20,453 nucleotides of DNA, taken from a virus. The translations under genes were made by a program, and so were the position numbers. The notes beneath the pieces were generated by a model that was not told the origin of the DNA, did not search any database, and saw only the letters and a program-made list of their open reading frames with translations. The first letter of the stretch is position 1. The number at the start of each line of letters is the position of its first letter. Location of the stretch: IMG/VR virus record IMGVR_UViG_3300022744_000617, positions 1 to 20,453 of that record, one strand, 5' to 3'. This document shows, one piece after another, positions 7,238-19,044 of this stretch.

Positions 7238-8187
7238 CTAGACACCCGGAACCCGTTGCCTTGCTTGACCACTTCGTTCGTCGACGGCCCGAGGCCGGGC
7301 GGGTCTGTGTTCTGGTTCGCCTCGAACCACGTAGACGACGCAAGCGTGGTTTCTTTCAACTGGTCAAGGCGCCCCTGCATGCGATCGAAGTAGACCTGCT
7401 CGGTGTCTGGCCGCTGGCGCAAGATTGCCACGACGGTGGCCAGCGCATGCAGCGGCTCCAGCTCCTCGACAGAGACGATGTTCTCTTCGGAGATGTTATT
7501 CGCATGCAGCCAGGGCAGCACCTCGTTGCGCCAGCCGGCGCCAAGCGCGTGCTCCAGGTCGTAGTCGCTGGCATCTACCGACGACAGCACGATCGGGTAG
7601 TCGCGAATCAGGCGCGACGGTGTCAGCTTCGATGTCGCCAGCCGGCGCACGATCGAAAACTGCGTCGACCACCGCATGTCAATGCCGTTGACAACGCACT
7701 TCCAGATAGCGTGACACGGGCCGGCAAGCGCGGTCTGCGCCGTGGTCAGCACCTTATAGATGTCGATCCCAACAAAATCGGACCCACTTGGCACGTCATG
7801 CGTGAGCGGGTCTTTCAAATATACAGTTGTTCCCGTGATGTTTCGCGCGCTCTCTACTGTGTGAATCTCGCCTGCAACCGTGCGGATAGAATACAGCGTT
7901 CCACGGTACATTGTTGCTGACGCGGACAGCGTCAGCGTGCGCGCACCCTCGGATGCGGATGACGCCAGCGTCGTCGATATGGTGCTGATCGTGGCAGATG
8001 CCCACGTGTCGACCGTCGTAGGCGACGAGGCCGGCGTGTAGATTTGCACGTATGCGGTACCGACGTCGACGGGTGCTGCTGCCGCCCATTCGCGCGAGTC
8101 GCTGTCGTTGTAGTTACCGCCACCCATCGTGCGCGGGTAGGTCGTGAGGATTGGTGCCGTGCCGATGATAAACTTTTCAGCCGGCAT
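7234..8187 (-). CDS. Neck / head-tail connection protein candidate
   Basis: A 317-residue protein with two visibly different halves. Residues 71-146 form a beta-rich module (ARTLTLSASATMYRGTLYSI, then TTVYLKDPL) resembling the modules in the tail tube and tip proteins. Residues 180-285 are helical, with DYDLEHALGAGWRNEVLPWL and an ALATVVAILRQRPDTEQVYF helix, recalling head-tail adaptor proteins that pack on the portal. A ribosome site AAAGGGTGG precedes the ATG at 8187. It opens the tail block after the lysis cassette and is coupled to the terminator candidate by a GTGA overlap. I do not recognise the whole protein, and tail rather than neck location remains possible. Confidence 0.5.
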   Translation of the reverse strand: MPAEKFIIGTAPILTTYPRTMGGGNYNDSDSREWAAAAPVDVGTAYVQIYTPASSPTTVDTWASATISTISTTLASSASEGARTLTLSASATMYRGTLYSIRTVAGEIHTVESARNITGTTVYLKDPLTHDVPSGSDFVGIDIYKVLTTAQTALAGPCHAIWKCVVNGIDMRWSTQFSIVRRLATSKLTPSRLIRDYPIVLSSVDASDYDLEHALGAGWRNEVLPWLHANNISEENIVSVEELEPLHALATVVAILRQRPDTEQVYFDRMQGRLDQLKETTLASSTWFEANQNTDPPGLGPSTNEVVKQGNGFRVSR

Positions 8188-8202
8188 GCGACCACCCTTT
8201 CA

Positions 8203-8733
8203 CTATTGCGTGGTGCTCACGAAAACACGCACTTCCGATATATCAGCAGAGTGTCCACGGTACAAGGTTCTGCGGGTGCGTGGAATCTCGTGGACCTTGC
8301 CGGTTGCAGGGTCTGCGATTTGCCAACTACCGCCGGGGAGCTCGCCGACGCAAAGCACGAAATGATCGGCGTCTGACAGCCCGCTAGATGCGCCGGCCTT
8401 GTGGTCGATCCCGAAGATGACAGGCACGCCAGACCGCACGTAGCGCGATACGTCCTCTGCGACGTAGCCGCCGACAAAGGCTTTGCTGATGCCGATGGCC
8501 GGCCCGGCGACACTGGTAATGAGCCCGCTCCCAGCGTAGCCATTGGCGGCCATGATGCGCATATTCGCCTCGGTCATAGAGGCCGGCGCCTGCTTTTTGT
8601 TGACCGCGCGCGCAGCCATCACCATGCACGATAGCAGGCACCCTGACTGCGCAAACGTCTTGCCGCCCTTGCCGAGCGGCATCGGCCCGTGCGGCAAGTC
8701 GGACTGCTTTACAATCGCGCCGACGTCGATCAC
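8203..8733 (-). CDS. C39-like cysteine peptidase, probable endolysin
   Basis: A 176-residue protein with the layout of papain-fold C39-like peptidases. Residues 29-40 (QSGCLLSCMVMA) match the family pattern with an upstream Gln and a Cys followed four residues later by a second Cys; C32 would be the nucleophile. H124 sits in SDADHFVLCVG and D141 in IADPATGKV, as expected for the Cys-His-Asp triad. Phage endolysins with such domains cut peptide bonds in peptidoglycan, and the two small membrane proteins directly upstream support a lysis role. No signal peptide was seen, so it would need a holin to reach its substrate. The start is GTG (8733), overlapping the TGA of the holin-like gene as GTGA. 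A virion-associated or peptide-processing function is the alternative. Confidence 0.68.
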   Translation of the reverse strand: MIDVGAIVKQSDLPHGPMPLGKGGKTFAQSGCLLSCMVMAARAVNKKQAPASMTEANMRIMAANGYAGSGLITSVAGPAIGISKAFVGGYVAEDVSRYVRSGVPVIFGIDHKAGASSGLSDADHFVLCVGELPGGSWQIADPATGKVHEIPRTRRTLYRGHSADISEVRVFVSTTQ

Positions 8734-8942
8734 TTCTTTGGGCCGAGCTTATCAACGGCATTAGCGATAGCGTCCGCGCCGTCTGCCATCACGTCGTTGC
8801 TCGGGTCTTTGTCGGCACGCCACTTCTTAGCGAGTCCGTGCAAGACACCGACGACGAGTTCTTTCAAGACACCGCCGGCGGCGAACACGAGCATCAACAC
8901 AAGCGGGTTGCCAAGCAAGTTCTTTGGGATCAAGTCATTCAT
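8730..8942 (-). CDS. Small holin-like membrane protein
   Basis: A 70-residue protein with one hydrophobic helix at about residues 13-36 (PLVLMLVFAAGGVLKELVVG), then a basic patch (LAKKWRADK) and a polar tail ending in KKLGPKK-like charges (DKLGPKK). I chose the ATG at 8942, which overlaps the previous stop by eight bases, rather than a start 24 codons further upstream, because the upstream part would lie wholly inside the neighbouring gene and is not hydrophobic. Size, single membrane segment and charged tail fit a holin or pinholin, and the neighbouring peptidase gene supports this. The family itself is not recognised; a small membrane-anchored structural protein is possible. Confidence 0.55.
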   Translation of the reverse strand: MNDLIPKNLLGNPLVLMLVFAAGGVLKELVVGVLHGLAKKWRADKDPSNDVMADGADAIANAVDKLGPKK

Positions 8943-9186
8943 CTTCGTGGCTCCGTAGTTTTCTGTGTGGTCCGGTTCTTTCGTCGAGCTTCTCGTTGGC
9001 GCGCTCCATGCCAAGCTCCAGCTTGTCGAGCTTTAGGTTGATCACCCGCAACGCCTCACTATAAAGCTCGCGGGAAATCTTGCTCTCGACGTCACGCTCT
9101 ACGCGGGACACGCGCCACGACATGGCGCCCCACGCGGCACCTGCGCCGAACAATCCGATTGCGCCGCCCATGAGCCATTCCGGCAT
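8935..9186 (-). CDS. Membrane-anchored coiled-coil protein (i-spanin or holin accessory candidate)
   Basis: An 83-residue protein. Residues 5-23 form a glycine/alanine-rich membrane segment and residues 26-70 a charged heptad-like helix (VERDVESKISRELYSEALRV and following), ending in a polar basic tail. This N-in anchor plus periplasmic coiled coil resembles inner-membrane spanins or small accessory proteins of lysis cassettes. A strong ribosome site, AGGAGG, four bases before the ATG, overlaps the stop codon of the previous gene. No embedded outer-membrane spanin frame was recognised nearby; the lipoprotein at 18622-19044 is too far away to pair confidently. Confidence 0.58.
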   Translation of the reverse strand: MPEWLMGGAIGLFGAGAAWGAMSWRVSRVERDVESKISRELYSEALRVINLKLDKLELGMERANEKLDERTGPHRKLRSHEDE

Positions 9187-9194
9187 GCTGCCTC

Positions 9195-9509
9195 CTACGG
9201 TTTTGCTGGCGGTACGTACTTCTCAAAAGGTGCGCCGTCCCAGCCGCCGGCGTTCACGAGCTTGGCGCTCTTGGCGACGGCTTCCACGGCGGAGTCAAAC
9301 GCTGCGCAGTCGTAGGCGATCTCAGTATTCGACACGCCGCCGCTTTCTTTGGGCACGTTCAGGTAACCGAAGCACTCGCCATCATTTGGCTTGTTGATGC
9401 ACATAGAGACGATGTCAGCGTCGCCAATTTGCGCCCCGCTCACGACCGAGACACCGCCGACAACGGCAGCGCCCGCGAGGAATGCAAGAGCGTTTTCTTT
9501 GATACCCAT
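9195..9509 (-). CDS. Exported small cysteine-containing protein
   Basis: A 104-residue protein. The start chosen is the ATG at 9509, which shares one base with the TAA of the previous gene (TAATG); a longer frame begins 49 codons upstream but is entirely overlapped by that gene. The N-terminus MGIKENALAFLAGAAVVGGV is a hydrophobic signal peptide or membrane anchor, with a possible cleavage after SGA at residue 26. Cysteines at about 37, 46 and 68 follow. The rest has no recognised motif. It lies between three signal-peptide genes and the lysis cassette. Possible roles are a periplasmic lysis or exclusion factor, or a virion accessory protein; none can be chosen from the sequence. Confidence 0.6.
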   Translation of the reverse strand: MGIKENALAFLAGAAVVGGVSVVSGAQIGDADIVSMCINKPNDGECFGYLNVPKESGGVSNTEIAYDCAAFDSAVEAVAKSAKLVNAGGWDGAPFEKYVPPAKP

Positions 9510-10279
9510 TAGATGCAACTCCAAAGTGTGTTGGCATACAGACAGTGCATGGACTGGTTGACCGTGAGCGTCGTCGGCGACGTGCGGAGCTTCACCTTGC
9601 CCGCTGAATCGGTGACCACGATCGACGCACTGCCCACGTTCATCAGGTCGAACCATTCACCATCGCGAATCGAGGTTTCGCCAGGTTCATAATTGCAAAC
9701 CGTGCCAGAGGTGCAGTTAAATGATATACTTGAAGACGTAGGAGTAGTCGTATCAAGTGTAGCAGTGGCGTTAGAGATCGTCTGGCGTTGCGTAATCTCT
9801 TGCAGCCCCTCACCGAGCACGCACATTTGATTGGTGCCATCAAGAGTCGGCGAGAGACCATCAGCGGCGCAGAAAATGCGTGTGGATGTAGCAGCATCCG
9901 TCTGGCGACCCGCCAGGATGTTACCGCTGGAAATCTTTAGCTCGCCACCGGAGCCGGCGGACGACTTAAGATACCACTGCGCAACGCTGCCGGTGTCCGG
10001 GCCGAAGTCGCCGCGAACGGTTCCATCAGTAAGCGCCACCTGCACCGCGCCGTCGTGGCGGACCACGCCCGTACCATTTGGGCGCAAGACAAGGTCCTCG
10101 TTCGTGCCGGTCGTGATGTCGACGGAGATGGCTGAAAAGATAAGTTGTGACAGCAGCGTCCCGCCGCTGAATGACCCACCACCACCGCCGTCGCCGTTGA
10201 TGCGACCGGCCATTGCAGACCCGGTCGCGACAAAGGACGCGAGCAGGAAGGCCGCTACGAATCCGATACGCGCGCGCAT
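9509..10279 (-). CDS. Exported tail-fibre-like protein with signal peptide
   Basis: A 256-residue protein. Residues 1-24 are a classical signal peptide: basic start (MRAR), hydrophobic core (IGFVAAFLLASFVATG) and an AMA cleavage site. The mature part begins with a glycine-rich linker and then LVLRPNGTGVVRHDG, a pattern typical of phage tail-fibre and trimeric virion proteins; the C-terminal part (GEWFDLMNVGSASIVVTDSA, then a final LYANTLWSCI strand) is similar to receptor-binding beta folds. Virion proteins of dsDNA phages normally carry no signal peptide, so this combination is odd. The stop and start with neighbours are linked by TAATG and TGATG. It could be exported and then join the virion, or act in the periplasm or cell surface. 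Confidence 0.7.
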   Translation of the reverse strand: MRARIGFVAAFLLASFVATGSAMAGRINGDGGGGGSFSGGTLLSQLIFSAISVDITTGTNEDLVLRPNGTGVVRHDGAVQVALTDGTVRGDFGPDTGSVAQWYLKSSAGSGGELKISSGNILAGRQTDAATSTRIFCAADGLSPTLDGTNQMCVLGEGLQEITQRQTISNATATLDTTTPTSSSISFNCTSGTVCNYEPGETSIRDGEWFDLMNVGSASIVVTDSAGKVKLRTSPTTLTVNQSMHCLYANTLWSCI

Positions 10280-10677
10280 CAGCTACCGCCCAGGCACTTG
10301 ATCGCCTGCGTGCCGCTGGCAACCAAACAGTAAGGCGCACCGCGTGCGGCGTCCGCACTCAGCGAGCTACGCAGACAGGTCGCCGACGTCGTCGAGATGC
10401 ACGGCGCGCTTGTCGTTACGCCAGACCCGCCGACAAAGACCGACGTGGCGCTGTTGTTTTCGCAGTAGACGCTTTGGAAGTTCATCCCCGAAGACGGCGC
10501 GATGGCGGTTGCCGTCGTCGCGCACGTCACAGAGAACGCCTCGAAGTTCTGGAAACCAGACGCCGGCACCTGTTGCGCGGCGACAAGAGACGGAATCGAG
10601 GAAGCGCGCGCGGGTACGAGCGCGACCCCGATCAACAATGCAACAGCAAAAGCCCCAAGAATAAAGGTGCGTCGCAT
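10279..10677 (-). CDS. Exported six-cysteine virion-like protein
   Basis: A 132-residue protein with a signal peptide (MRRTFILGAFAVALLIGVAL, cleavage ARA before S26). The mature part contains the segment SVYCENNSATSVFVGGSGVT, similar in style to small beta-sandwich virion proteins with the N-N-S/T-x-x-V-x-V-G-G pattern. Six cysteines at about 52, 72, 93, 101, 117 and 128 suggest three disulfides formed in the periplasm. A strong ribosome site AGGAG lies before the ATG and overlaps the stop of the upstream gene. Its stop shares a base with the next ATG (TGATG). Function unknown; a decoration or adhesion protein added after export is one possibility. Confidence 0.7.
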   Translation of the reverse strand: MRRTFILGAFAVALLIGVALVPARASSIPSLVAAQQVPASGFQNFEAFSVTCATTATAIAPSSGMNFQSVYCENNSATSVFVGGSGVTTSAPCISTTSATCLRSSLSADAARGAPYCLVASGTQAIKCLGGS

Positions 10678-10686
10678 GTTTTACTC

Positions 10687-11265
10687 CTAGAGAGACTGCA
10701 GTTTGATTACATAGAAATTAGCCGCACGGGTCGTGACCGTATCACCATTTGATCCGCTGTCATAACGGAAGTCATAGGTGTCGCTCAGGCTGGCGCTCAC
10801 AATCTTCTCAACACATCCGAGATTGCCGCGCACGGCCGATGCCGCATAGGTATTGCGCACGATGGGGCTCGCCACGGTGGTAGCGCCGGCGCGCACGCGG
10901 TGCCAGGCACCGAGCACGACAGCGTTGTTAGCCCCGACGACATCGTTAAGGCAAGCGCGCAAGAGGATCTCGCCGACGCCGCAAGAGGCAGCGATCGTGA
11001 AGCTGTTGCTCGCGAGCGTGTACGTGATGCATCCGCTGCCGTCGGTCTCACCCGCCACCATGGGCGCAGCCGTCTTTACGGTGACGTAGGTGCCGGCGGT
11101 AGTGACCGTGGTAACGGTTCCGGTCGCATCGCTGATGCCAGCCGATGCGAACACGGAATCGCCGGCGCTATTGTACTCGCGCGCGAGCGCGTTGCCGGGC
11201 AGGAAGAACGTAGCGAAACCAAGCGTGAGCGTTGCAGCCAGTGCGTATTTCAAAACATTCTTCAT
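10687..11265 (-). CDS. Exported beta-rich protein with signal peptide
   Basis: A 192-residue protein whose first 28 residues form a signal peptide (MKNVLKYALAATLTLGFATF, cleavage site ALA before R29). The mature part is rich in V, T, A and G with four cysteines, and its C-terminus (DTYDFRYDSGSNGDTVTT followed by a YVIKLQSL strand) looks like the last strands of a jelly-roll of the C1q or TNF-like kind often found in secreted or surface proteins. The ribosome site AAGGAG is strong and contains the stop codon of the upstream gene. It is the first of four successive exported-protein genes. No family is recognised with confidence, and the jelly-roll reading is an inference. Confidence 0.68.
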   Translation of the reverse strand: MKNVLKYALAATLTLGFATFFLPGNALAREYNSAGDSVFASAGISDATGTVTTVTTAGTYVTVKTAAPMVAGETDGSGCITYTLASNSFTIAASCGVGEILLRACLNDVVGANNAVVLGAWHRVRAGATTVASPIVRNTYAASAVRGNLGCVEKIVSASLSDTYDFRYDSGSNGDTVTTRAANFYVIKLQSL

Positions 11266-11275
11266 TGCCTACTCC

Positions 11276-11515
11276 TTAGCGCCGTCGCGCTTCGTTGATG
11301 TATTCGTGCATGGGTCGCGTGTGGCCTTTGTCCGCATCACGCGCCATGGCGGACGCAATACGGTGCGCGGTCTCAGAATTGACCACGGTGCTGGTGCCAT
11401 TGGTCAGCATGCGAGCAAGTGCAGGCTCTGCCTTCTGTGCGATGTCGGCAGCGAGAGCGTCGGCTGCGTCTTTGCGGATCTGCTTTTCGCCGTTCTCGGA
11501 CTTACGCTTCGACAT
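11276..11515 (-). CDS. Small charged helical protein, unknown
   Basis: A 79-residue basic, alanine-rich, mostly helical protein starting MSKRKSENGEKQIRKDAADA. No signal peptide or known motif. Its start overlaps the end of the 172-residue gene by 14 bases, and a GGAAG ribosome site sits six bases before the ATG. It lies between the capsid gene and the exported-protein genes. A small head-completion or DNA-binding role is conceivable, but there is no direct support for either. Confidence 0.6.
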   Translation of the reverse strand: MSKRKSENGEKQIRKDAADALAADIAQKAEPALARMLTNGTSTVVNSETAHRIASAMARDADKGHTRPMHEYINEARRR

Positions 11516-12020
11516 TTGGCACTTCCTTCTTTGGTCGCTGAATCTTTGGCGCGTCTTGCTTCGCTTTGTTCACGACGGTGGCGAGCAAGTCGATCATCTC
11601 TTTGGCGTTGTGCTTGTTGCTTTGCAGTTGATTCTTCTCTCGAAGCGCCACGTTCTTGTGAATCAGCGCGACGTGCTCTTGCGTGAGCACCGGCCAGTCA
11701 GCCAGCGGGTCGCCGGGGAATGCCGGCTCGATGGGCTTCGGCACGTAGCTAATCTCAGCGTCGAATGCGTCGCTTGACGCAACACGCTCGCCAGCAACAA
11801 AGATTGGCTGTTTGTCCTTGCCCTTCTTAGCCATGATGTTCATGGCACTTGAGCGGCGACCGTGCGGGACGATGCCTTCCCCTTGGCGGTAGCTGCCGCC
11901 GTCGTCTGGGATGAGGTAGCTAAATCCGTCCGTTGTAGAGATAACGGACAGCATGCGCGGTCGCTTGGCGAGCTTGCGAACCTTTGCGAGAACGTCATCG
12001 AGATCGTCGTTGTCAATCAT
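11502..12020 (-). CDS. Unknown protein downstream of major capsid
   Basis: A 172-residue protein, acidic at the N-terminus (MIDNDDLDDVLAKVRKLAK) and basic with lysines towards the end. An AAGGGG ribosome site precedes the ATG at 12020. Immediately downstream of the capsid gene, genes usually encode head decoration, head-tail completion or DNA-binding proteins. The middle (SYVPKPIEPAFPGDPLADWP) is proline-rich and probably extended, followed by a charged helix around residues 115-155. No family was recognised. Confidence 0.6.
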   Translation of the reverse strand: MIDNDDLDDVLAKVRKLAKRPRMLSVISTTDGFSYLIPDDGGSYRQGEGIVPHGRRSSAMNIMAKKGKDKQPIFVAGERVASSDAFDAEISYVPKPIEPAFPGDPLADWPVLTQEHVALIHKNVALREKNQLQSNKHNAKEMIDLLATVVNKAKQDAPKIQRPKKEVPNVEA

Positions 12021-12058: not shown

Positions 12059-13063
12059 TTACGGCGCGTCGGTAACAATCTTCACAGCGTTCAAGTCGAC
12101 GAGCTCGGCGCACAAGTAGTGAGCCGTGGTCACGACGTCGACCGCACGCAGCAAGAGGTTGACATGCGCGCGCGTCATGAGCGGTGCCTTTTCCAGGTAC
12201 ACGAAGGCGCCGGGACGGCCCATGTACTTAGGCGCGTCGGGGGCTTCGTCGCCACCGAGGACACCGAAGCAACCGACGACGTCCGCGCCCGAGTTCGCGG
12301 TGACCGCAAGCTCGTAGTCGTACGTCGACACTGGACGGCCGAGCAGCTCACCAATGTAGCCGGCGCCGCGCGAGTCTTGCGCGTTCATCAGGTTATTTTG
12401 CGCCTGGCTGTTCCACAGATTCGACAGGCCCGTACCCGTGCCCGCCATCGCTTCCGTGTTCACGTCGTTAACCTGAATCTCGTGCAACACGTATTGCGCT
12501 TCTTGGATGCCGCGCAACGGTTGGTTGATACGGAACTGGTATTGTGCCGCCATCAGGTTCGCGATCGAGCAATCAACGCCGGTCGAACCAACCGAGGTTG
12601 ACAGGCCGGTCATGAGTGCAAGCGCGTCCGCCTCCATCTTCTGCATGGCCATCGGGATGTGCTCGTTGATGATCGGCTCAAGCATGCCCGTGAGTTGGTC
12701 AGTATTGCCGTCGACGAACATGCGTTGCACTTGCTCGAACGGAACACCGAGCGCGAGCGATGCCGCGTTCTCGGTAACTTGGCTCAAGATCGCCACGCCT
12801 TCCGTCGGGGTGACGGACACCGACGTGCCGAGCGACAGCGCAGTGTTGCTCGAAAGCGCGGTTCCTTCCGTGCCTGCCGACGCAGCGCCCAGATCGCCTT
12901 GCTTGAAGTAGCGCTTAAGGGGCGCATTCAAGCCGGAGATCGAATCCTTGTGAAACTTCGCAAGGAAGATGAACTTGGGGATATTCGCGAGGATGGCGCG
13001 CTGCGCCATCACCTCGGTACGGGTGTATGCGGAAAGTGTAGATGCAGTGGTCTCGTTGGCCAT
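12059..13063 (-). CDS. Major capsid protein
   Basis: A 334-residue protein directly after the scaffold gene, the standard position of the HK97-fold capsid subunit. The N-terminus (ANETTASTLSAYTRTEVMAQ) has no signal or long delta-domain, in keeping with a separate scaffold gene. A central LSLGTSVSVTPTEGVAILSQ region followed by the helical ASLALGVPFEQVQ stretch and a C-terminal domain with APLMTRAHVNLLLRAVDVVT fits capsid proteins of tailed phages, although I cannot name the subfamily. A ribosome site GAGGG lies four bases before the ATG. It is followed by only 38 bases before the next gene, and no terminator was seen there. Confidence 0.82.
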   Translation of the reverse strand: MANETTASTLSAYTRTEVMAQRAILANIPKFIFLAKFHKDSISGLNAPLKRYFKQGDLGAASAGTEGTALSSNTALSLGTSVSVTPTEGVAILSQVTENAASLALGVPFEQVQRMFVDGNTDQLTGMLEPIINEHIPMAMQKMEADALALMTGLSTSVGSTGVDCSIANLMAAQYQFRINQPLRGIQEAQYVLHEIQVNDVNTEAMAGTGTGLSNLWNSQAQNNLMNAQDSRGAGYIGELLGRPVSTYDYELAVTANSGADVVGCFGVLGGDEAPDAPKYMGRPGAFVYLEKAPLMTRAHVNLLLRAVDVVTTAHYLCAELVDLNAVKIVTDAP

Positions 13064-16809: not shown

Positions 16810-18111
16810 TTAACCGTGTACCATGCTCACGACGTTAGGTGTACTGTTAGCGCGCGTAGAGAACCCGGGCCAGTACATATGAACGCCGTAGCGCACGAGG
16901 TCAGCACCGTGCGAGAGGTCGGCATCGCCGCGCAGCTTCTCAGGCTTACCCGTCGTCTTGTCGTACGCCTGCTGCTCAAAGCACCGCGTGATGTAGCGGC
17001 ACTGTTTGGTGTCGATGTGAATGCGGTTCTTTGCGAGCGCCAGTTGTACACTTTGCACGCTCGCCTCGATCGACGGGTTGGCGCTCGGGAACTTCGGGCG
17101 GAATCCTAGCGACCTTAGGATCTGAACCGTCGTCAGGTTGCTGTTGCTAGAGCGCTGTTGCCCTGCCGCGTCACACACCACAGTTAGCGTCGACTGCATG
17201 ACCTCGCGCTCAGACGTGTTGCACAGCAGCGCGATTTGACTGCGCGCATACTCGCCATGTTCAAGCACATCGGTGCCGTTCTTGCTGCCGATGATCTCTT
17301 TGATGATGTGCGCGCCGTTGTCGGTCTTGAGCACGATCGCCCACGTCATCGCGTCGACGTTGAAATCGCACCACATCTGCAAGCGTGGAAGGTCTTTATA
17401 GGTGAGCGCCGGGGCATCCATGTGGTGCTTGTTGCGATCGAACCGGGTATAAACGCGACCCTCTTTCGGCGTGCGAATCCCCTCAAGGCGTTCGCGCTGC
17501 TCCGACTCCGACAGCATCGCGGTCAGGTCCGCCACGTAGGATGCGCTCAGATGCGGGTTGTCCTGCGTGCGCGCAAATATCTGGCGCATGCCAATGGACT
17601 CGGCTGCCGCCGTCCACTTCTCGCCAGCACCGCCGTACCCTTCCGGCGTACCCTGCAATACAAGTTGCGGTGTATTGCTAATGCCGTCAGTTATGCGCTC
17701 TCTAATTGTACGCAATAGACGGTCGCCTAGCGTCTCCCATTCGTCAACGAGCGCAAACCCTACCGTTAGACCATACAGTGATTCAGGGTTGTCACCGCTT
17801 CTCAGGAACAGTTTGCACTCGCGACTACCCATGCGCCATGTGATAGTGGAATCGCTCTTATGGTAAGTGTATCGTATTCCCGCCTTCTCCATACATCGTT
17901 GCCATGTTTCAACGAAGACAGCGGTCAATTGCTTATACGTTGGCTCGACAACTAGTCCGGCAATTGGTGCATTGGCATACGCCAGGCGAAACGCCTTCCA
18001 TACCATTGCGTAGGTCTTGCCAGATCGGACGCCGCCGGTGAGGCATAATATCTTCGATGTCTCATCGTCGATCATGTCCGCTTGGTGCGGCAGTAGTTCG
18101 ATGGTCGCCAT
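16810..18111 (-). CDS. terL: Terminase large subunit
   Basis: A 433-residue packaging motor and nuclease. Visible motifs: Walker A GGVRSGKT at 26-33, Walker B FALVDEWE at 119-126 with catalytic E124, coupling motif QGTP at 153-156, and the RNase H-like nuclease acidic residues D249 (MWCDFNVD), D314 (VVCDAAG) and an aspartate near 398-404 (DADLSHGAD). It hydrolyses ATP to push DNA through the portal and cuts the concatemer. The ATG shares its first base with the TAA of the small terminase gene (TAATG), so translation is coupled. Length is at the shorter end for the family and all core motifs are present. Confidence 0.93.
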   Translation of the reverse strand: MATIELLPHQADMIDDETSKILCLTGGVRSGKTYAMVWKAFRLAYANAPIAGLVVEPTYKQLTAVFVETWQRCMEKAGIRYTYHKSDSTITWRMGSRECKLFLRSGDNPESLYGLTVGFALVDEWETLGDRLLRTIRERITDGISNTPQLVLQGTPEGYGGAGEKWTAAAESIGMRQIFARTQDNPHLSASYVADLTAMLSESEQRERLEGIRTPKEGRVYTRFDRNKHHMDAPALTYKDLPRLQMWCDFNVDAMTWAIVLKTDNGAHIIKEIIGSKNGTDVLEHGEYARSQIALLCNTSEREVMQSTLTVVCDAAGQQRSSNSNLTTVQILRSLGFRPKFPSANPSIEASVQSVQLALAKNRIHIDTKQCRYITRCFEQQAYDKTTGKPEKLRGDADLSHGADLVRYGVHMYWPGFSTRANSTPNVVSMVHG

Positions 18112-18621: not shown

Positions 18622-19044
18622 CTACCAGTTGCACAGCGGCTTGGCCTTTTCGATAGCCTCATCCGTCTCAGAGTGCCACGGGCCGGGGCTCTTGGCGTGG
18701 TTCGCGTCGCCGTCGCCGGTCTTCTGGAAAAAGTGCGCATGCCAGCGCTCGTGCAGCATCACGTGGCAGCTAGAGACGGTCATGTGCTGCTCGTCAACCG
18801 TGTAGCCGGAAGCCTCCAGCCCGCTGTCCACCCAGAACACCGTGGGATCGACCCAGGTGACTTCTATGGGCGGGGCCGGGTCAAGGGCCGGCTCTAGGTC
18901 CGCCATCCCAAAGAAGACGTCCTGCACTTGCTCAGCGCTAGGGCAGTTGCCCGGCACCCGTGCGCGGCAGTCAACGCTAGCCCACGCAGGCACCCATGTA
19001 GAACAGCTCGCCAGTAGGCAGGTGAGAATTATCGCACATCGCAT
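18622..19044 (-). CDS. Lipoprotein with HExxH zinc-protease-like motif
   Basis: A 140-residue protein. Residues 1-13 are a short signal sequence ending in a lipobox (LLAS before C14), so it should be lipid-anchored. Residues 98-102 are HERWH, an HExxH motif in the context SSCHVMLHERWHAHFF, as in zinc metallopeptidases; possible third ligands are H116, H124 or E126. Six cysteines follow the lipid-modified one or flank the motif. I do not recognise the family. If active it would work in the periplasm or at the outer membrane, for instance in lysis, envelope modification or superinfection exclusion. It is the first gene of the leftward set after the control region; only a weak GGTAAGA element precedes the ATG. 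Confidence 0.7.
   Translation of the reverse strand: MRCAIILTCLLASCSTWVPAWASVDCRARVPGNCPSAEQVQDVFFGMADLEPALDPAPPIEVTWVDPTVFWVDSGLEASGYTVDEQHMTVSSCHVMLHERWHAHFFQKTGDGDANHAKSPGPWHSETDEAIEKAKPLCNW

Follow-up and report, generated by a model that had tools for sequence, protein, structure and literature searches.

A predicted Sec-exported, cysteine-rich version of a virion-like gene pair in the late operon of a divergent tailed phage

The window, i.e. the whole stretch of DNA that was analysed, is a 20,453-base virus record of a tailed phage, in which every late gene lies on the minus strand. The late genes follow the order small and large terminase, portal, head genes, major capsid, a block of four genes designated A to D, a probable lysis cassette and tail genes. 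Portal, capsid and tail genes were assigned largely by gene order and size, since this phage is highly diverged. The family search gave no informative match for the major capsid candidate, a segment of which was 40% identical in L004 (labels of this type denote viral comparison contigs; G001 is the L144 contig, 37.7 kb). The preliminary description had placed four consecutive genes at 9195-11265 inside the structural operon, and all four open reading frames were indeed located there; they run on the minus strand, flanked by capsid-side genes on one side and by lysis and tail genes on the other. The features are as follows.

18622..19044, minus strand: g140, upstream of the small terminase gene; signal-peptide score 5.2, with an AWA site or a lipobox LLASC
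16810..18111, minus strand: terminase large subunit (phrog_2, E=6e-28), which marks a tailed phage
12059..13063, minus strand: probable major capsid protein, 334 aa, by size and gene order
10687..11265, minus strand: gene A, 192 aa; predicted signal peptide 1-28 (GNALA/REYNS) and a mature part of about 164 aa with 4 Cys
10279..10677, minus strand: gene B, 132 aa; predicted signal peptide 1-25 (VPARA/SSIPS), linker and beta-module with VFVGGSGVTT; 6 Cys
9509..10279, minus strand: gene C, 256 aa; predicted signal peptide 1-24 (GSAMA/GRING), Gly-rich linker, fibre-like DITTGTNEDLVLRPNGTG repeat and C-terminal region; 6 Cys
9195..9509, minus strand: gene D, 104 aa; hydrophobic N-terminus (anchor or weak signal peptide); 3 Cys
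8935..9186, minus strand: small protein in holin-like position; a single hydrophobic segment at the N-terminus, charged coiled-coil-like tail
8730..8942, minus strand: small one-TM protein, holin-like, 70 aa from an internal ATG (MNDLIPKN...)
8203..8733, minus strand: C39-like cysteine peptidase, probable endolysin (weak PF13529 match, E=0.0034, below the curated cut-off)

Signal peptides were scored with a heuristic of our own, based on n-region charge, hydrophobic core and AxA site, with a pass threshold of 4.3. Genes A, B and C scored 4.49 (cut after GNALA), 5.76 (VPARA) and 5.45 (GSAMA), respectively; the same heuristic returned 4.4-5.5 for OmpA, PhoA, MalE, LamB, DsbA and Bla of E. coli. 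All three proteins have the features of Sec/SPI substrates, namely a positive n-region, a hydrophobic core and AxA within about 30 residues, and the starts of A and B are preceded by good ribosome sites. Gene D, whose ATG at 9509 has a TGGAG ribosome site, lacks this combination: its N-terminus is hydrophobic, no cleavage site was called, and a signal anchor is the most it could be. Only A, B, C and g140 passed among the 24 genes of the window, the pass rate for random N-termini of matching composition was 0.45%, and none of 75 annotated genes of phages tf, Speedwell, ctEqG8, Charming and Tunturi_3 passed; three consecutive signal peptides are therefore not a chance occurrence. Sec export of A, B and C is a well-supported prediction. 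The earlier proposal of three genes in a row with signal peptides (ALA, ARA, AMA) thus holds, with scores like those of E. coli exported proteins, while that of four exported proteins is reduced to these three.

Gene B belongs to a widespread, uncharacterised family of phage beta-domains of about 87 residues with the motif VxxGGSxVT, the first homologues being found in the podovirus-like contigs L001 and L020. A scan of 2.9 million viral contigs with a degenerate DNA pattern for VxxGGSxVTT returned at least 119 stretches. Most of the matches listed were proteins of about 87 residues that have no signal peptide and start at the beta-domain itself, and a few were unrelated long proteins. The neighbours of non-exported B genes were portal/head, fibre, lectin-like (LamG) or SGNH-hydrolase genes, and many of these B genes among the matches listed directly followed the portal gene, as expected for head-associated proteins. 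In isolated phages, Speedwell gp9 lies directly after the portal gene, the ctEqG8 member after the capsid gene and Charming gp25 after an SGNH esterase. The matching family is PHROG 30212, of unknown function, whose profile hit Speedwell gp9 and the L023, L024, L025, L046 and L054 members. Window B alone gave no direct hit to this profile, and for this reason we file it by alignment and tree as a relative of PHROG 30212 and not as a member; it carries the motif and the aligned beta-domain of PHROG 30212-like modules. The domain, the motif and proximity to portal, capsid, fibre or SGNH genes are common to window B and proteins of this type (Speedwell gp9, Charming gp25, ctEqG8 UOF81936), whereas the signal peptide and Cys pairs are present in window B and absent from them.

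An AlphaFold model of B built on 39 sequences had a confident beta core (blocks with pLDDT 83-96), and its best viral structure matches (BFVD, E down to 1e-7) were unnamed phage proteins, many of 84-100 residues. The fold prediction called for earlier was thus informative for B but not for C, the model of which (pLDDT 39) was set aside. The best match in the PDB fold search with the B model was weak (7a02, E=0.044, TM 0.34-0.39) and corresponded to the Bacillus endospore appendage subunit Ena1B. Both proteins have several Cys; however, there is no sequence match, the biology differs, and the Ena N-terminal Cys connector is absent from B, which has no Cys before the beta-domain. The Pfam scan of the 39 B members likewise retrieved no Ena family.

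As regards direct virion evidence, the B-family member of Tunturi_3 is annotated as “virion structural protein”; the Tunturi phage paper mentions neither mass spectrometry nor SDS-PAGE, so this annotation is without proteomic support. No proteomics placing a B-family member or a C protein, exported or not, in a virion was found in the literature searched. Phage tf was considered as a source of such proof and rejected: tf_61 matches the B profile weakly and the tf paper reports no proteomics on it, and tf_50, named “head fiber protein”, is not of the B family. It should be added that tf_60 and tf_61 (L149 34452-34999, minus strand, Pseudomonas phage tf) are small tandem proteins, unannotated in tf, with weak B-profile E-values of 0.036 and 0.0013, adjoining SGNH tail spike and TM genes. 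B also matched L011 at 12.4 bits, but on the antisense strand of a scaffold-like gene, and this match was discarded. Genome contigs searched for hosts contained no relatives, the four pattern matches being chance frames without the domain.

Gene C is 35% identical to L001 9257-10231, whose N-terminus is also signal-like, and both share the fibre repeat DITTGTNE-LxLxPNGTG. With its DITTGTNEDLVLRPNGTG repeat and Gly-rich linker C resembles phage fibre proteins with xNGTG or RYLKL-type repeats, from which it differs by the Sec signal peptide at its start and 6 Cys. Pfam, PHROG and PDB sequence searches yielded nothing useful for A, C and D; gene A had no match in family, PDB or phage-collection searches, and relatives of D were sought and not found. 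Homology of A to TNF/C1q-like proteins near lysis genes in L001 and L020 (hhalign probability 0.1) and of D to the L001 D gene was considered, and the comparisons spoke against both. The virion-like character ascribed earlier to the mature parts is well supported for B, through its phage beta-module family, and for C, through its fibre repeat. The four genes had been regarded as one set that might recur in other phages: a functional set is supported for B and C only, which recur as a pair in several unrelated viruses, whereas no recurrence was seen for A and D.

Signal peptides or clear signal-like N-termini were present in at least seven distinct B members (window, L001, L020, L043, L144, L052 and L054), which add only a signal peptide and a linker ahead of the beta-domain. 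In the maximum-likelihood tree the window phage and the four podovirus-like contigs L001, L020, L043 and L144 formed one clade with support 96/90. L052 and L054 fell outside it, on long branches and with uncertain placement, and consequently the export trait needs at least two changes. Cysteines in the exported B forms numbered 0, 4, 4, 4, 4 and 6, L054 B having none; the mean for the non-exported forms among the matches listed was 0.27. Several of the extra Cys sit in a short insertion, KGYPxCTxxAxC, absent from the cytosolic forms. Mature parts of the window proteins contain 4 (A), 6 (B), 6 (C) and 3 (D) Cys, so that the even numbers noted previously are true of A-C and not of D. The 4-6 Cys of most exported B proteins lend support to the earlier suggestion of disulfides, and the cysteine gain of the exported form points to an oxidising compartment.

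Export of B was accompanied by export of its partner. By automatic calls, the gene downstream of exported B was signal-peptide-positive in four of five cases, versus 0/85 for non-exported B among the matches listed (Fisher p 2e-6, many of the 85 loci being near-copies); with non-redundant loci having a downstream neighbour, 0/34 partners of non-exported B among the matches listed were exported, with p about 6e-5 by our own arithmetic. The automatic exception was L020, whose partner starts with MKWLLSLLLVTGIGS and scores 3.66, below the threshold; the partner in L001, not in the automatic count, starts with MSKKLLVVFLCLSVFVALDRAYA and is signal-like by eye. We put both down to gene-calling failures. 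B and its partner thus share their export state in nearly every scorable case.

Fibre-like partners of exported B are window C, L001 C and those of L043 and L054. LamG-like partners occur in L144 (PF13385, E=0.015, below cut-off) and, by resemblance, in L020 and as gene E in L001, and an SGNH hydrolase (PF13472, weak) in L052. Each type has a cytosolic counterpart: portal-B-LamG in L076 versus exported L020 and L144, B with a RYLKL-motif fibre protein in L035 versus exported L054, and B with an SGNH hydrolase in L046 versus exported L052. As the same three partner types stand beside exported and non-exported B, we regard them as one kind of pair in two states. The recurrence of the exported pairing in several unrelated viruses argues that the pattern is real and, as judged from sequence, the block is a genuine co-exported, putatively disulfide-rich form of a virion-like pair that is normally cytosolic.

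Closely downstream of the block in the window, L144, L001 and L020 come small holin-like genes with a single TM segment, together with a peptidoglycan hydrolase gene (Amidase_2 in L144, CHAP in L001 and L020, the weak C39 match in the window), and the 8935..9186 protein resembles those of L144 and L001 in architecture and place. L052 has a phage lysozyme and a TM gene at a distance of 2-5 kb from the block, and hence a lysis cassette adjoins it in four or five loci. TM (holin-like) genes also follow non-exported B in L027, L061 and L089; this adjacency therefore reflects a place in the late operon that both forms share and does not mark export. In G001, the called signal-peptide genes were the three of the B block only.

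The usual view is that virions of tailed phages are assembled entirely in the cytoplasm. The reading we tentatively favour, with somewhat less than even confidence, is that A-C, perhaps with D, represent a late, Sec-exported version of a virion-fibre module that is made cytoplasmically elsewhere, and that they decorate particles at lysis. The small beta-module B and its fibre-like partner C would be exported together; in the late phase of infection A-C would be translocated through the inner membrane, be trimmed of their signal peptides and build up in the periplasm, where disulfides would form. Lysis of the cell by the neighbouring holin and endolysin genes would then free them at the same place and moment as the progeny, to whose particles they might bind as surface decoration or adhesin. 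The case for addition to the particle at lysis is that non-exported counterparts are found among genes for head and fibre proteins, and that a decoration could in principle attach to a finished particle; it is weakened because no B or C protein was found in published virion proteomics, A and D do not recur, L054 B has no Cys and lysis adjacency is not specific. That several tailed-phage lineages export a two-component fibre or decoration module through Sec, oxidise it in the periplasm and assemble it on particles after lysis is a more doubtful generalisation.

Slightly less favoured and nearly as likely as decoration at lysis, though still rather improbable in itself, is receptor blocking or superinfection exclusion, whereby the exported proteins would stay on the infected cell and its debris, at the surface or in the periplasm, and occupy or modify the phage's own receptor, sparing progeny from loss on dead envelopes and keeping rival phages out. 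Export together with fibre, lectin-like or SGNH partners suits the binding or editing of surface glycans, and L052 exports an SGNH hydrolase and has a lipobox-bearing second one. A precedent also exists in lambda Lom, an exported outer-membrane protein encoded between tail genes (PMC12309495), which shares with A-C both export and a place inside the late structural region. However, Lom is an outer-membrane beta-barrel, whereas Pfam and PHROG scans retrieved no Lom/Ail barrel family for A-C and neither an outer-membrane anchor nor a barrel was seen in them; furthermore, a block standing with late head and lysis genes is late for exclusion, and the cytosolic relatives of B have no reason for an envelope location.

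In the window, L144, L001 and L020 the block immediately precedes holin-like and endolysin genes, and D and L144 D have anchor-like N-termini; both points would also suit a lysis accessory that helps to open the outer envelope as a spanin substitute or regulates holin timing. We consider this unlikely, as the mature parts resemble beta fibre, lectin or SGNH modules, spanin features (a coiled-coil inner-membrane i-spanin, a short o-spanin lipoprotein) are absent from A-C by sequence, and many phages, some of them infecting Gram-positive hosts, have the B-family domain in non-exported form. Quite unlikely, too, are uncleaved anchors that tether assembling virion parts to the inner membrane, with the bulk of the protein cytoplasmic. 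Cleavage of A-C is a prediction, D and L144 D look anchor-like and L001 C carries charges within its hydrophobic region, but A, B and C have the canonical AxA at the right distance and the cysteine gain points away from the cytoplasm. Finally, chance hydrophobic N-termini or wrong start codons are very improbable: the signal calls come from our own heuristic alone, yet the low random rate, the three contiguous genes and the ribosome sites before A and B speak against them, and the signal is conserved despite a divergent mature part in the well-supported clade.

Searches of a collection of open-access papers turned up no account of fibre-like proteins with signal peptides in tailed phages, which speaks weakly for novelty. 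One study took the absence of signal peptides from phage-encoded hypervariable (DGR) proteins as support for their phage origin (PMC6199706). Should decoration at lysis prove true, rules by which a signal peptide argues against a role in the virion would have to be revised. The matched exported and non-exported pairs make post-lysis addition of parts, or the sending of virion-derived binders to the host surface, directly testable.

Two minor sets of observations should be added. In L052, the exported SGNH hydrolase (9460-10590, minus strand) and the lipobox-bearing one on the opposite strand (7572-9449, plus strand) adjoin tail and lysis genes, and a third SGNH domain occurs in a tail-region protein without signal peptide; surface-glycan editing is a possible role of this set. 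Moreover, three unrelated phages have an exported or lipoprotein-like gene close to the small terminase gene or to where the packaging genes begin. These genes are g140 of the window, for which Pfam and PHROG scans gave no family, L011 4318-4662 (plus strand), a Rap1a-domain protein (PF18602, E 5e-16), and L151 10499-11035 (minus strand, G001), with an exported-type N-terminus MVRLASVLILVLTLGC/GQ. In L011, the probable capsid open reading frame (10554-11816, plus strand) opens with a signal-peptide-like MKKLQIALGVALGFVMSVAHAAHA ahead of the likely mature start.
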